Origin: Methanoculleus receptaculi
GTDB taxonomy: Archaea; Halobacteriota; Methanomicrobia; Methanomicrobiales; Methanoculleaceae
Assembly (NCBI RefSeq): GCF_033472595.1
Contig: NZ_CP137642.1
Location: 1,364,001-1,428,000, forward strand
Length of the DNA: 64,000 nt
Direction of reading: 5' to 3'
Shown here: positions 14,669-20,677 of the stretch, in pieces
How positions within the stretch are numbered: the stretch's first letter is position 1
Layout: every line of letters starts with the position of its first letter
Program-made: the position numbers and the translations under genes
Notes under the pieces: generated by a model
What the model was told of the DNA's origin: nothing
What the model saw: only the letters and a program-made list of their open reading frames with translations
Database searches by the model: none

Positions 14669-15920
14669 GTGTAACGAATTTTCTGTAAAAATGATTTGGC
14701 CCTGAATCCAACCTAGATTTGGACAAAGGAGAAACAGGGCCATGGATCCCTTAGCGTTAATCGAAGATTATCTTTCCGATCAGGAGAATGGCATGAAGAC
14801 CCTCATCACCTGGTTCCTCAACCAGGTGATGCTGCTCGAAGCCCTCCAACAGGCGGGAGCCGAGCAGTATGAACGAACCGATGCGCGGAAAGCGCATCGG
14901 AACGGCTACAAGAAGCGCTCTCTGAAAACCCGATATGGAGAAACGATCCTCCTGAAACCACAATTCCGAGAGTTCTCCTTCGAAACACAGGTGTTTGGAC
15001 GCTATTCACGGGTTGAGAAGGCTCTTGAGAATGCTATCTTTGAATCCTATCTTCAGGGTGTTTCAACCCGCAGGATCCAGGAGATTGTTGCTCATTTTGG
15101 CATCGAACAACTCTCTCCTGCTTTCAGTATCCAGGATAGCAAAAGATCTCGATGAACAGGTCCATGCATTCCTTCAGAGGCCGATTGAACAGGATATTCC
15201 CTATCTCTTTGTGGATGCTTCGTACTACAAAGTGAGAGAGAGACCACGGTACATCACCAAATCTCTTCTGGTGATCGCCGGGGTTCGAATGGACGGCTAC
15301 CGGGAAATCCTGGGAGCCAGAATCACCGACTGTGAGAATGAAGAATTCTGGTCAGGATTGTTCGAAGACCTCAAAGAACGAGGATTGACGGGTGTCAAAC
15401 TGGTTGTCTCGGATGGTCATGCCGGGATCCAGAAGGCGGCGGAAGCCGCCTTCCTCGGCGCATCGTGGCAGATGTGCTCGGTCCATTGCACGCGGGCGGT
15501 TTTAAAGAATATTCCCCGGAAACATCAGAAAGAAGTTGCTGAATCCTTGAAGGAGGCATATGGGAACGAGAAGAGACTTCAGCAGCTTGCAGATGATCTG
15601 AACGAACGAGGATACCGGAAAGCGGCCAATACGATCGAGAGATTCATCCCGGGACTTATGAGTTACACGGCGTTCCCGAAAGAGCACGCAAAGCGGATCA
15701 GAACGACGAACATGATGGAAAGAGTCAACAAGGAACTGAAACGGAGAACCAAAGTTGTAGGGGCATTTCCCAATGAAGAGTCACTCCTCAGGCTGGCAGG
15801 ATCCATCCTGATGGACATCAATGAGGAGTGGGTGGCCGGCAGAAAATATTTGACGATGGAGGGGGAATGATCAAACAAGGAGACAGGGCTCAGAAGAATT
15901 ACAGAAGATCTGAAACACTA
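14669..15920 (+). mobile_element. IS256-family insertion sequence, nearly complete
   Basis: The left end reads gtgtaacgaattttctgtaa and the right end, read in reverse, also contains ttctgtaa and gccctg at matching distances, so imperfect terminal inverted repeats of about 35 bases can be aligned. One frameshifted transposase gene lies between. The flanks ccctgata and taccgatc do not form a target duplication, which suggests rearrangement by recombination between IS copies after insertion. Related sequences are at 37214-37856 and 21731-21768. Confidence 0.8.
14742..15870 (+). pseudogene. IS256-family (mutator-type) transposase, one-base frameshift
   Basis: The two overlapping frames together give a full-length IS256 transposase. 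The first (from ATG 14742) covers DPLALIEDYLSDQENGMK to GIEQLSPA. The second covers VSRIAKDLDEQVHAF to the end. Catalytic residues are visible in FVDASYYKVR, VVSDGHAG and TNMMERVNKELKRR. An extra T in a TTT run near 15122 shifts the frame; the related copy at 37288 has the uninterrupted sequence (LSPASVSRVAKDLD). One reversion would restore the protein. Confidence 0.85.
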
Positions 15921-16197
15921 CCGATCACCACGAAGACGGGGAGGCGGTTTGACCGGGAGTAGGCGTTGTATCGCCTGATCTGGTCGGGGGAGATTTATTC
16001 GGCCAGGCTGTGCTCAGCCGCATGCAGTATGCCATGAACATGACAATTTCAAATAATCAATATTAATACCCTCTCATACCACCGGATAATTGTATGAAGA
16101 TTTTTCACCGTATGGAATCCTCCCGCCATCAAGGAGCACATCCTCGTCAATATCAACCCAAACGCAGATATTCGGCTCTCTGGGCAGGAGATGAGGG

Positions 16198-17172
16198 ATG
16201 AACGTTCTCGATGCCGCATATGAGGTGCTCCGTGCAGCAGGTGAACCGCTCCACTACCGCGAGATCACGCAACGGATGCTCGATCGAGGTCTCTGGTCGA
16301 GCGCAGGGTTGACCCCCTGGAATTCGGTCAACACCCGGATTGCTGTTGATATCAAAAGAAATCGGGAGCAGTCCAGATTTTATCGAGCAGCTCCCGGCAT
16401 CTTCGGGTGCCGTGAGGCTGGAGATCCCAACCCCTCTCCGGAGCCCGAACCCGAGCGGGATAGCATGTCCTTCCTCGATGCCGCCGAAATGGTGCTCGAG
16501 GATTATGCAGATAGGCAACCGATGCACTACCGGGATATCACCCGAAAGGCTCTCGACCTCGACCTGATCACAACCGGCGGCCTGACCCCCGAAGCGACGA
16601 TGTACGCCGCGATCCTCACCGAGATCCAGCGGCAGAACAAACGAGGGGAACTCCCGAGGTTCGAGAAGTTCGGCAAAGGCTACGTCGGGCTGACCCGGTG
16701 GCACGAACAGGGGCTTCCCTACCAGATCGAGGCGCATAACCGCGAGGTGCGGGAGCACCTCATGCAACGGATCAGGACGATGGACCCCGCCGCCTTCGAG
16801 GGGCTCGTCGGGGAACTGCTTGCAAAGATCGGGTTCGAGGACGTCGCGGTCACCCGGGCGAGCGGCGACGGCGGCATCGACGTTCGAGGGACGCTTGTTG
16901 TTGGCGACGTCATCAAAACGAAGATGGCCGTCCAGGTGAAACGCTGGAAGAACAATATCCAGACGCCGGTCGTCCAGCGGGTCAGGGGCTCTCTCGGGGC
17001 ACACGAGCAGGGGCTGATCATCACCACGAGCGACTTTTCGACTGGCGCCCGGCAGGAGGCGGAGCAGCCGGACAAGACCCCTATTGCCCTGATGAACGGA
17101 GAGCAGATGGTGAATCTGCTTATCGAGTATGATATCGGGGTGCGTACGATCTCATCAAACTCCAGGAGATAG
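16198..17172 (+). CDS. Mrr-type restriction nuclease with two HARE-HTH domains
   Basis: This 324-residue protein has two tandem HARE-HTH winged-helix domains: residues 1-70 (AAYEVLRAAGEPLHYREITQ) and 91-167 (AEMVLEDYADRQPMHYRDIT). They are followed by an Mrr-type nuclease domain at about 190-315. The catalytic core is GDGGIDVRG at 223-231 and QVKRW at 246-250. Mrr-family enzymes cut modified DNA; HARE-HTH domains have been proposed to sense DNA modification. The gene is the first of an operon, 3 bases before a DUF262/HNH gene, so a modification-dependent (type IV-like) restriction role is likely but not proven. Confidence 0.85.
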   Translation: MNVLDAAYEVLRAAGEPLHYREITQRMLDRGLWSSAGLTPWNSVNTRIAVDIKRNREQSRFYRAAPGIFGCREAGDPNPSPEPEPERDSMSFLDAAEMVLEDYADRQPMHYRDITRKALDLDLITTGGLTPEATMYAAILTEIQRQNKRGELPRFEKFGKGYVGLTRWHEQGLPYQIEAHNREVREHLMQRIRTMDPAAFEGLVGELLAKIGFEDVAVTRASGDGGIDVRGTLVVGDVIKTKMAVQVKRWKNNIQTPVVQRVRGSLGAHEQGLIITTSDFSTGARQEAEQPDKTPIALMNGEQMVNLLIEYDIGVRTISSNSRR

Positions 17173-17175
17173 AAA

Positions 17176-18987
17176 ATGGCAATCGGAATCACAACTTTCC
17201 AGAGTACAAAAGTCTTCCTCAAAGATATTCTTGAGAAGATCAACGAGCGCAAGATTCAGCTTCCCGACTTCCAGCGAGGATGGGTGTGGGACGACTACCG
17301 GATCCTGAGCCTCCTCTCGAGTGTCTCCCTCTCGTTTCCCATCGGGACTGTAATGATACTCCAGACCGGAAACAGCGAATACCGGTTCAAGCCGCGACCA
17401 ATCGAAGGGCTGCCCCTTGAACCGGCTGTCGAGCCTGAACAATTGATCCTCGACGGGCAGCAACGGCTCACCGCACTTTTTCAGGCGCTGATCAAGCCAG
17501 GTCCAGTCATCACAGAGGATGCCAGGAAGAAGCCTATCCATCGATATTATTACTTCGATATCGAAAGATGCCTAGATCCCAACGAAGACCGCGAAGACTG
17601 CATCCGGAGTATTTCGGAGGATAAACGTGTCAGGGACTTTCGGCGCAAGGTCGTCGAAGACTACTCTACACCAGAAAAGGAGTACGAGGCCGGTCTCTTT
17701 CCGGTGAAGCAGGTGTACGATAGTTTCTCCTGGAGGATGGGGTACGATGAGTACTGGGATTACGACAAATCAAAGATAAAACTCTTCAACCAGTTCTATA
17801 CAGAGGTCATCCAGCGATTCGAACACTACCAGCTCCCGGTCATCGAGATGGAGAAGGAGACGCCGAAAGAAGCGGTCTGCCTTGTTTTTGAGAAGGTAAA
17901 CACCGGCGGGGTATCGTTGACGGTCTTCGAGCTCCTGACCGCCACGTTTGCAGCTGATAACTTCTCGCTCCGCAACGATTGGAAGAATATTGCAGAACAG
18001 TTTGCCAAGGAAGATGTTCTGAGTAAGATCCCGAACGATCATTTCCTCCAGGCGGTCACCCTGCTTACGACGATGAAGCGGAACCGGGAATACATAGAAA
18101 GAAGAGGAGACTCGGACGGACGTGCGCCTGCAATCAGCTGCAAGCGCAAAGACATTCTCAAACTCAATCTCGAGGATTATCTTGAGCACCGTGATGCGGT
18201 GGTTGACGGTTTCATGAAGGCTGCCAAGTACCTGAGGATGCAGAAGATCTTTACCGCCCACGATCTGCCGTACCAGACGCAGATCGTCCCGCTGGCCGCC
18301 ACATTTGCGGTCCTCGGCGATGAAGCTGATAACGACACCGTAAGACAGCTCCTCTCGCGATGGTACTGGTGTGGGGTCTTTGGCGAGCTCTACGGAGGCG
18401 CGATTGAGAGCCGGCTTGCAAAGGATCTTCCTGAGCTGATCGCGTGGATCCGGGGCGGCGATGAACCGACAACGGTGAAGGACGCCTCGTTCTCGGGAGC
18501 ACGCCTGGAGGAACTGACAACCCGCGGAAGTGCGGCCTACAAGGGTATCTTTGCGCTGCTGATGCGCGATGGATGCGAGGACTTCCAGACCGGCCAGCCG
18601 ATTGATATTACAAACTACTACGATGAAAATATCGATATCCATCACATCTTCCCTCAAAAATGGTGCAGCGAGCATCTCGATAGGGCGGAGCTCGCGAGGC
18701 GCAAGAGGGCGGTGGACTGTATCATCAACAAAACACCTCTCTCTTCTCGCACCAATCATATGATTGGCGGGCATGCGCCGAGTGTCTACCTGCGACGGAT
18801 CGAGAAGAACGAGCAGATCCCGGCAGAGCGCCTGGATCAGATCCTGCGCTCACATGTCATCGATCCGGAAGCGCTTCGGAACGACGACTTCTGGGCGTTC
18901 TACAACCGGCGATACGAGGAGATCCTCGACCGTATCGAGGCCGCGATGGGCAAGCCCGTGATCCGGGAGGAGGTAGAGACGGTATGA
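17176..18987 (+). CDS. DUF262 protein with C-terminal HNH-type nuclease
   Basis: This 603-residue protein begins with a ParB/Srx-like DUF262 domain: LPDFQRGWVW near residues 29-38 and DGQQRLTAL at 93-101, the family's nucleotide-handling motif. The C-terminal region has an HNH/DUF1524-type nuclease signature, DIHHIFPQKW near residue 487, followed by NKTPLSSRTNHMIGG near 515-529. The same domain pair is found in the GmrSD type IV restriction enzyme and in several phage-defence proteins. Its start lies 3 bases after the HARE-Mrr gene, so both are probably subunits or layers of one defence system. Confidence 0.85.
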   Translation: MAIGITTFQSTKVFLKDILEKINERKIQLPDFQRGWVWDDYRILSLLSSVSLSFPIGTVMILQTGNSEYRFKPRPIEGLPLEPAVEPEQLILDGQQRLTALFQALIKPGPVITEDARKKPIHRYYYFDIERCLDPNEDREDCIRSISEDKRVRDFRRKVVEDYSTPEKEYEAGLFPVKQVYDSFSWRMGYDEYWDYDKSKIKLFNQFYTEVIQRFEHYQLPVIEMEKETPKEAVCLVFEKVNTGGVSLTVFELLTATFAADNFSLRNDWKNIAEQFAKEDVLSKIPNDHFLQAVTLLTTMKRNREYIERRGDSDGRAPAISCKRKDILKLNLEDYLEHRDAVVDGFMKAAKYLRMQKIFTAHDLPYQTQIVPLAATFAVLGDEADNDTVRQLLSRWYWCGVFGELYGGAIESRLAKDLPELIAWIRGGDEPTTVKDASFSGARLEELTTRGSAAYKGIFALLMRDGCEDFQTGQPIDITNYYDENIDIHHIFPQKWCSEHLDRAELARRKRAVDCIINKTPLSSRTNHMIGGHAPSVYLRRIEKNEQIPAERLDQILRSHVIDPEALRNDDFWAFYNRRYEEILDRIEAAMGKPVIREEVETV

Positions 18988-19064
18988 GTGTCGGGGCGGT
19001 GAGAGATGTCAAAGGGTTCACCATCGACCAGGCAAAGGTGCGGACGTGGAAGCGGTATCCGGCA
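18984..19064 (+). pseudogene. Truncated third gene of the restriction operon
   Basis: An ATG overlaps the stop codon of the DUF262 gene as ATGA, the typical sign of translational coupling. The frame encodes MSVGAVRDVKGFTIDQAKVR and seven more residues, then runs into the left end of the IS66-family element at 19065. No continuation is found beyond the right end of the element at 20674. The family cannot be recognised from 27 residues. Confidence 0.5.
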
Positions 19065-19160
19065 TGTAACAGGTCAGGACACCCCTTCACCACACCTTGC
19101 TCTTACCCATCATATCACAATCCCCCTTTTCTGAAAATACGCCCATACAACCGTTAGATC

Positions 19161-19170
19161 TTTATATAAT
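19161..19170 (+). promoter_or_regulatory. Putative TATA box of the IS66 element
   Basis: The sequence tttatataat lies about 35-40 bases upstream of the first ATG inside the IS66 element at 19203, the normal spacing for an archaeal promoter. Confidence 0.45.
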
Positions 19171-19202
19171 GAGAGATAAATAGATATTCAGGTTATGTCA
19201 TC

Positions 19203-19358
19203 ATGGAACGTGACGATATTCTTGCACTGATACAGAACGACCCTGAAGCGATCGTCACGATCATCCAGCGTCTGGAAGAAGAAGTCAAGCAACTTCAAGA
19301 ACTCTGCTCACTTCAGCAGACCCGGATCGCTGAACTCGAACGACGTACTCAGACATGA
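19203..19358 (+). CDS. IS66 N-terminal coiled-coil ORF
   Basis: This frame encodes 51 residues rich in heptad-like Leu, Ile and Glu (IVTIIQRLEEEVKQLQELC, then RIAELERR). In standard IS66 transposases such a helical segment lies directly before the SSKPPSSD motif within the same protein. Here it ends in an ATGA overlap with the transposase gene whose product starts MSSQNSSRPPSTDG. The N-terminal helical part is therefore encoded separately and probably translated by coupling. Confidence 0.6.
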   Translation: MERDDILALIQNDPEAIVTIIQRLEEEVKQLQELCSLQQTRIAELERRTQT

Positions 19359-20665
19359 GCAGTCAAAACAGCAGTCGTCCCCCATCCACCGATGGCTTCA
19401 AACGGCCTCAGAAAGAGCGTAAAAAGACCGGGAAACGTCCGGGGGGTCAGAAAGGACATGAAGGTCGGACGATTGAATGGTGTGAGACTCCAGACATCAT
19501 CCAGACACACCGCGCAGATGTCTGTGAAGAATGTGGTGCATCCCTTGCTCTCGTCCCGGCATCCTCTGTTCAGAAGAGACAGGTTCATGACATTCCCCCA
19601 CTCCGGATAGTTGTCACCGAACATCACGCTGAAACGGTCGTCTGCCCACACTGTGGTCGGATACATGAAGGGTCATTCCCCGAGGAGGTTCCGGCTTACC
19701 TCCAATACGGCTACAACATCCGGGCGTTGATGGTTTACTTCTGCATCTACCAGTTGCTTCCGTATGAACGTTCAGCGGAGATCTTCACGGACATCTTTGG
19801 GTGTTCCCCGGTCAAGGCAACCCTGATGCAGTCCGTTTCAGCCTGTGCAGCAAACCTTGACGGTTTTGAAGAAGAGGTGAAACACCTTCTGCAGGGAGCA
19901 CCTGTTCTGCATGCTGATGAAACCGGATTCCGGGTGAACGGCAAACGAGAATGGCTGCATACAGCCAGTACGGATCTCCTCACGCTGTATGGTCATCATC
20001 CGAAAAGAGGATCGGAGGCGATGGATGCGATCGGTGTACTTCCTGCGTTCAAGGGGATCATGGTCCATGATTGCTGGTCGCCATACTTCGGGTATGCATG
20101 CGAGCATGCGGTCTGTAATGCCCATATCCTCCGCGATCTCAAAGGGATATCGGAGAATACCGGCCAGCATTGGTCTGATGAGATGCATGATCTCCTTCTT
20201 GAGATCTACGCCGCTGTTGATGGAGCCCCGGAATCAGCGGGTTCTCTCACACCGATTGAGATCGAAGAGTTTCAAAGACGATTTGATCGGATCCTCGAGA
20301 GCGGGAAGGCAGAGAACCCCTCCTCTCCTCTGCCGGTTCAAGGAGGGAGACGTAGTCGGAAGAGACGAACTCCTGCTGAGAACCTCATTGACCGGTGTCA
20401 GAGATATCGTGTAGAGATCCTCCGGTTCATGACCGATTTCAGGGTGCCCTTTACGAACAACCTTGCAGAGCGCGATATCAGGATGGTGAAGGTTCAGCAG
20501 AAGATCTCAGGGACGTTTAGAAGTGTGGAGGGGGCATCTAACTTCTGCAGGGTTCGGGGGTACATCTCAACGGTGAGGAAGAATGGAGGGTCGGTAATCA
20601 CGGCCATCAGGAAGTCATTCGAGGGAGAACCCTTCATACCAACTGCGGCTTACAGGTATACCTGA
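19355..20665 (+). CDS. IS66-family transposase (TnpC type)
   Basis: This 436-residue transposase has the IS66 domain order: the NSSRPPSTDG linker, a zinc-finger-like region (CEECGASL and CPHCGRIH), and a DDE core with HADETGFRVNGKREW (first Asp), HDCWSPYFGY (second Asp) and FTNNLAERDIRMVKVQQK (Glu). The C terminus has the usual ISGTFRS and VRGYISTVRKNG segments. The frame is uninterrupted and both inverted repeats are present, so the element may be active. The start ATG 19355 overlaps the stop of the coiled-coil ORF. Confidence 0.9.
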   Translation: MSSQNSSRPPSTDGFKRPQKERKKTGKRPGGQKGHEGRTIEWCETPDIIQTHRADVCEECGASLALVPASSVQKRQVHDIPPLRIVVTEHHAETVVCPHCGRIHEGSFPEEVPAYLQYGYNIRALMVYFCIYQLLPYERSAEIFTDIFGCSPVKATLMQSVSACAANLDGFEEEVKHLLQGAPVLHADETGFRVNGKREWLHTASTDLLTLYGHHPKRGSEAMDAIGVLPAFKGIMVHDCWSPYFGYACEHAVCNAHILRDLKGISENTGQHWSDEMHDLLLEIYAAVDGAPESAGSLTPIEIEEFQRRFDRILESGKAENPSSPLPVQGGRRSRKRRTPAENLIDRCQRYRVEILRFMTDFRVPFTNNLAERDIRMVKVQQKISGTFRSVEGASNFCRVRGYISTVRKNGGSVITAIRKSFEGEPFIPTAAYRYT

Positions 20666-20677
20666 CCTGTTACATTT

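Follow-up and report, generated by a model that had tools for sequence, protein, structure and literature searches.

Two nuclease genes and their surroundings

The window (the whole analysed stretch of DNA, 64,000 nucleotides) is part of the genome of Methanoculleus receptaculi, a single contig of 1.98 Mb. Two adjacent genes on its forward strand encode predicted nucleases of different folds. The upstream gene, referred to here as HARE-Mrr (16198..17172, 324 aa), was delineated by Pfam matches and motif alignment and contains two HARE-HTH domains (2.1e-33) and an Mrr_cat domain (2.6e-28) with a PD-QxK motif. The downstream gene (17176..18987, 603 aa) combines a DUF262 domain with a C-terminal HNH domain and is identified as a GmrSD-type nuclease by Pfam, motifs and a fold match. 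The stop codon of HARE-Mrr (TAG, 17170-17172) is separated by 3 bp from the ATG of the DUF262 gene at 17176, and the stop codon of the latter (TGA, 18985-18987) overlaps the start codon of a third open reading frame at 18984, i.e., the two form an ATGA. Coordinates and domain matches agree in this respect with the initial annotation, which had described two nucleases of different folds 3 bp apart in a restriction context and a third frame starting at an ATGA overlap. It had also proposed translational coupling; the overlaps are indeed tight, but they indicate no special coupling, ATGA being the usual joint in the type I restriction-modification operons described below.

HARE-Mrr is a predicted Mrr-type nuclease on the basis of its Mrr_cat domain and PD-QxK motif. 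Residues Q246-x-K248 are invariant in 9/9 aligned sequences, and the GDGGID motif is present in seven of the nine, missing only in L117 and L118, which are the most distant. A sequence search of the PDB with HARE-Mrr gave no match. The window copy carries a 10-nt deletion near its 3' end, which replaces the conserved tail YDLIDLEEDEE with RTISSNSRR and leaves the catalytic motif intact. The joint between HARE-Mrr and DUF262 is an ATGA overlap in relatives as opposed to the 3 bp gap in the window, and the gap is derived, a consequence of this deletion.

The DUF262 protein is assigned to the GmrSD family by its DUF262 motifs and its predicted C-terminal His-Me finger (HNH). The match to GmrSD_N (PF03235) is strong (2.4e-32), and that to GmrSD_C/HNH is weak (6e-4; 20.1 bits, under the Pfam cut-off of 23). 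The motifs QR, DGQQR and FxxxN are invariant across the aligned relatives, in which the HNH signature DIHHIF...NK...N of the C-terminus is likewise kept. When the AlphaFold model (mean pLDDT 85) was compared with known structures by Foldseek, BrxU was the best match, over the whole chain (E=8e-14), followed by SspE; BrxU was also the sole meaningful match in a sequence search of the PDB. At 0.39-0.42 the global TM-scores are low, compatible with domains that are placed differently, and the fold match accordingly supports membership in the GmrSD family and not the details.

Both flanks of the locus are occupied by insertion elements. The upstream boundary of what we interpret below as a relic is a Mutator-family (IS256-type) transposase gene (14742..15870, forward strand; PF00872) split over two frames, with two adjoining ORFs matching profile positions 19-135 and 136-378, respectively. 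On the downstream side lies an IS66-family element with a DDE_Tnp_IS66 transposase (19066..20673, forward strand), identified by Pfam and by comparison of its copies; the genome contains four further near-full-length copies. The copies L002 and L005 have an 8-bp target duplication (GGAATTAG and GGCGAAAG) and none was found at the copy in the window, so a rearrangement probably came later and removed downstream DNA.

Remnants of hsdS and hsdM

The third frame (18984..19065, forward strand) encodes a peptide of 27 codons, MSVGAVRDVKGFTIDQAKVRTWKRYPA, and is followed by IS66 from 19066. The full HsdS proteins of Methanomicrobiales relatives with complete operons open with the same leader (MSAADGEGFAIDPTQVRAWKRYPAYKDSGVEWLGEVP in L110 and MSAEFAIDPAEVRTWKRYPEYKDSGVEWLGKVP in L112). 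A profile built from six HsdS N-termini, with that of the window excluded, found the third frame at E=3e-8 as its sole match among 1,895 six-frame peptides of the window, the next best value being 0.55. At the DNA level, the corresponding frame of the Methanoculleus chikugoensis locus (L010) matches hsdS 5' ends in other genomes with 75-81% identity. The full hsdS genes of the relatives are assigned by Pfam to Methylase_S and their neighbours to HsdM, HsdR and DUF2513. The third frame is the start of hsdS, which encodes the specificity subunit in type I restriction-modification systems, and the profile match rules out a novel third component.

The initial annotation had the third gene cut by IS66 after 27 codons. 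The element does begin at 19066, but the frame ends at the same place without IS66 in the two closest relatives (L009 and L010), where a frameshift leads to a TAA after codon 27. The break in these loci goes back to a small deletion, with GCGTATAAG in intact genes as against GCATAAG; the bases left before IS66 in the window (GGCAT) fit both an intact and an already broken hsdS. We consequently reject a long third gene cut by IS66 alone, the relatives' frame being broken at codon 28 without the element. The third frame is coding in intact loci insofar as distant loci have a full hsdS, but it is a dead remnant of 27 codons in the two closest relatives. The remainder of the gene was not found beside another IS66 copy: the genome is without HsdS, and the sequences flanking the other copies cannot be paired with those of this one. 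Two ORFs of 174 aa and 350 aa first listed around L010 are antisense artefacts. As a separate observation, what is left of hsdS in L009 and L010 is joined to a 46-nt stretch (L010:7922-7968) that also occurs at about 2696-2746 of the window and in most of about 40 Methanomicrobiales genomes; this stretch forms the 3' tail of small ORFs of one family (80-110 aa) with a hydrophobic end.

Upstream, a remnant of hsdM (16131..16202, forward strand) runs into the start of HARE-Mrr. It was detected by tblastn of HsdM against the window as a match of 24 residues with 71% identity (E=1e-4), and corresponds to about residues 225-248 of the 680-aa protein, within an internal segment (residues 219-252); this replaces an earlier reading as the start of hsdM joined to its end. 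The scrap is found at the identical place in M. chikugoensis (L053) and in Methanoculleus sp. MH98A (L009), with E of about 1e-7. In L110 and L112 the 680-aa HsdM immediately precedes HARE-Mrr, and in intact operons its end (...EMMG*) overlaps the ATG of HARE-Mrr as GGATGA. In L009 the scar has the sequence GGGCAGGAGATGATGGGATGAACG, consistent with removal of the DNA between two short repeats of GGAGA.

In the window genome we found no Methylase_S or HSDR_N and no HsdM of the family present in the relatives' operons, all of which were recovered in control genomes; the sole N6_Mtase match is a 1,094-codon open frame elsewhere. The genome therefore does not hold the complete set of hsdR, hsdM and hsdS that a working type I system comprises, and the traces of HsdS and HsdM that point to a type I operon as the origin of the locus are remnants only.

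Relatives of the pair and the hsdM-hsdS interval

We searched 232 genomes of the order and 393 genomes sampled across the phylum, the two sets partly overlapping. An adjacent HARE-Mrr/DUF262 pair was found at four loci only (the window, L009, L010 and L051), which are all at least 80% identical in DUF262 and have an ATGA overlap as the joint in three of the four. The association that the initial annotation expected to be conserved elsewhere holds among these closely related loci but in no others of the two sets. HARE-Mrr and DUF262 were not found together between a full hsdM and hsdS in this search, the combination occurring only in eroded loci or on the short contig L051. On that contig (L051:1-1586, genome G122) a gene for a 323-aa protein comes next, and after it the beginning of a P-loop ATPase gene that looks BREX-like by eye, so that here the pair may have moved into another defence locus.

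The genome of M. chikugoensis (G049) holds both states. Its complete operon (L110) has the order hsdM - HARE-Mrr - hsdS - DUF2513 - hsdR, and its eroded locus (L010/L053) consists of the hsdM scrap, HARE-Mrr, DUF262 and the 27-codon hsdS remnant, with YgjP-like and HsdR genes further downstream. The locus of MH98A is eroded in the same way and its HARE-Mrr is itself frameshifted by one base. Other arrangements are hsdM - HARE-Mrr - Fic - hsdS - hsdR (L112) and HARE-Mrr - hsdS (L114). Altogether, HARE-Mrr accompanies hsdM or hsdS without an intact DUF262 gene in L110, L112, L113, L114 and L115; relatives of DUF262 occur with hsd genes and without HARE-Mrr in L055, L056, L057, L138, L140 and L141, and without hsd neighbours in L012, L013, L014, L054 and L139. 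In G068 (L058) a Fic gene directly follows the 3' end of DUF262. The DNA identity between the window and L010 is 0.90-0.96 for HARE-Mrr and 0.74-0.84 for DUF262, i.e., the locus is a mosaic, and the pair was consequently not simply inherited as a unit.

When the HsdM family of these operons was traced through the order, the interval between hsdM and hsdS was often found to hold other genes, namely Fic (L120, L122), GmrSD proteins of a different subgroup (L175, L180, L187, L189, L190), a DUF1016/YhcG nuclease (L180) or SIR2 and HerA (L186, L188); it is empty in L121, L174 and L191. In L173 and L192 hsdM is likewise followed by Fic, with no hsdS detected further downstream. The SIR2-domain protein and the HerA/DUF87 ATPase after it (L186:2219-5730 and L188:2415-5914), identified by Pfam in the former locus and by sequence likeness in the latter, are a known kind of defence pair as cargo. 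At L124:3630-3836 a mini-HsdM of 68 aa, its N-terminal part joined to the last residues, precedes Fic; this is another type I operon that has lost its core and kept its cargo.

Origin, possible function and known systems

We are confident that the locus is a relic of a type I operon of the order hsdM, HARE-Mrr, DUF262/HNH, hsdS, YgjP or DUF2513, and hsdR, with the nuclease pair as its cargo, because the third frame is hsdS, a scrap of hsdM lies upstream, intact relatives exist and the genome contains no HsdS or HSDR_N. The locus is not the unnamed three-component system proposed initially, the third gene being hsdS, the upstream scrap hsdM and the pair type I cargo, and comparison with relatives thus removes a false lead. 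In the course of erosion, hsdM would have been lost through an internal deletion that left the scrap directly before HARE-Mrr, hsdS would have been cut down to its first 27 codons, and IS66 and a later rearrangement would have removed everything downstream, the two passenger genes staying as intact ORFs.

As for function, HARE-HTH domains fused to a restriction endonuclease have been proposed to discriminate modified DNA (PMC10853773), and in GmrSD the DUF262 domain is the NTP-dependent modification sensor and HNH the nuclease (PMC11411939; PMC12707154). By analogy, both proteins are most likely modification-dependent (type IV-like) nucleases that would cut invading DNA with modified bases: the HARE domains would detect the modification on behalf of the Mrr nuclease, and DUF262, as NTPase/sensor, would control the HNH nuclease. 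In intact operons the passengers would complement the type I enzyme by acting on phages that evade it through modified DNA, as proposed for TgvAB; in the window they would act alone, without a type I enzyme. For DUF262, comparison of L009 with L010, which have both scars in common, gave an omega of 0.117 (66 synonymous and 30 non-synonymous differences, p=4e-22), and for HARE-Mrr, comparison of the window with L010 gave 0.166 (p=7e-13); these tests ignore transition bias, and the margin is large. Both genes keep their motifs and are under purifying selection (omega 0.12-0.17), and may still function in type IV-like restriction. Decay of HARE-Mrr may nevertheless have begun, given the frameshift in L009 and the altered tail of the window copy.

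The present state of the pair can be read in more than one way. It is conceivable, and we suggest it only tentatively, that the pair is a type IV module, once interchangeable cargo of the hsdM-hsdS slot of archaeal type I operons, that was freed and selected as an independent defence unit after the loss of all three hsd genes; if so, type I operons take up, reshuffle and release other defence genes as their carriers. It is also possible, and in our opinion doubtful, that the nucleases are pseudogenes in the making, a dead remnant without present function after loss of the type I operon. The disappearance of hsdM and hsdS, the missing HARE-Mrr tail in the window, the HARE-Mrr frameshift in L009 and the insertion elements on both flanks would all suit such a remnant, but both frames are full length with intact motifs, and omega remained well below 1 after the shared loss of hsdM and hsdS.

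The adjacency of the genes at four loci, three of them with an ATGA overlap, together with the mutual dependence of TgvA and TgvB (PMC11411939), could alternatively mean that HARE-Mrr and DUF262-HNH are one obligate two-protein restriction system to which hsdS is irrelevant. This is unlikely, considering that each gene often occurs without the other (HARE-Mrr with hsdS in L110 and L114, DUF262 with hsdS in L140) and that the two have diverged unequally. Still less probable is that the passengers are guards kept silent by the Hsd complex and set free upon its inhibition by a phage. The model for this is PrrC, whose gene lies inside a type I locus, by which it is silenced (PMC2610378, PMC12707154). 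The position of HARE-Mrr between hsdM and hsdS would accommodate this role, but the pair persists under purifying selection without any Hsd protein, which a silenced toxin should not survive; in addition, the domains are those of DNA-directed nucleases and related DUF262 genes also occur alone.

The type I relic is a decayed case of a known arrangement, a type I operon with GmrSD cargo; among the defence genes found next to GmrSD, those of type I systems are the most frequent (PMC4619093). The new element is modest: HARE-Mrr combined with GmrSD, and the cargo slot in archaea. In the open-access literature, of which our coverage was partial, we found no description of HARE-Mrr as cargo between hsdM and hsdS. 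The slot offers a clear archaeal example of a variable defence interval (HARE-Mrr, Fic, GmrSD, DUF1016/YhcG nuclease, SIR2-HerA), and the locus one of passenger nucleases that survive their host operon; the closest published precedents that we found are bacterial.

Among known proteins, BrxU, a GmrSD-family type IV enzyme (PMC4619093), resembles the DUF262 protein in its N-domain with QR/DGQQR/FxxxN, its helical linker and its C-terminal HNH, but the two are only 16% identical. Mrr and the HARE-HTH-REase fusions (PMC10853773, PMC12839542) likewise combine HARE-HTH with a PD-(D/E)XK-type domain, are proposed to discriminate modification and occur in defence loci; HARE-Mrr differs from the published fusions in having two HARE domains and in its type I hsd context as opposed to Dnd or BREX. 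RloF, a DUF262 gene of Campylobacter type I loci, is, as far as the papers citing it relate (PMC4619093, PMC11411939), also an accessory ORF, placed there between hsdS and hsdR whereas the cargo in the window lies between hsdM and hsdS. TgvAB, a tested case of GmrSD in a type I locus whose hsdS is disrupted by IS256 in one strain (PMC11411939), shares with the window the placement of DUF262/HNH restriction genes within a type I hsd operon. It consists, however, of two mutually required DUF262 proteins, one of them with DUF1524, whereas the archaeal window, its hsd genes gone, has one DUF262 protein, a single-chain GmrSD, with HARE-Mrr as its partner.
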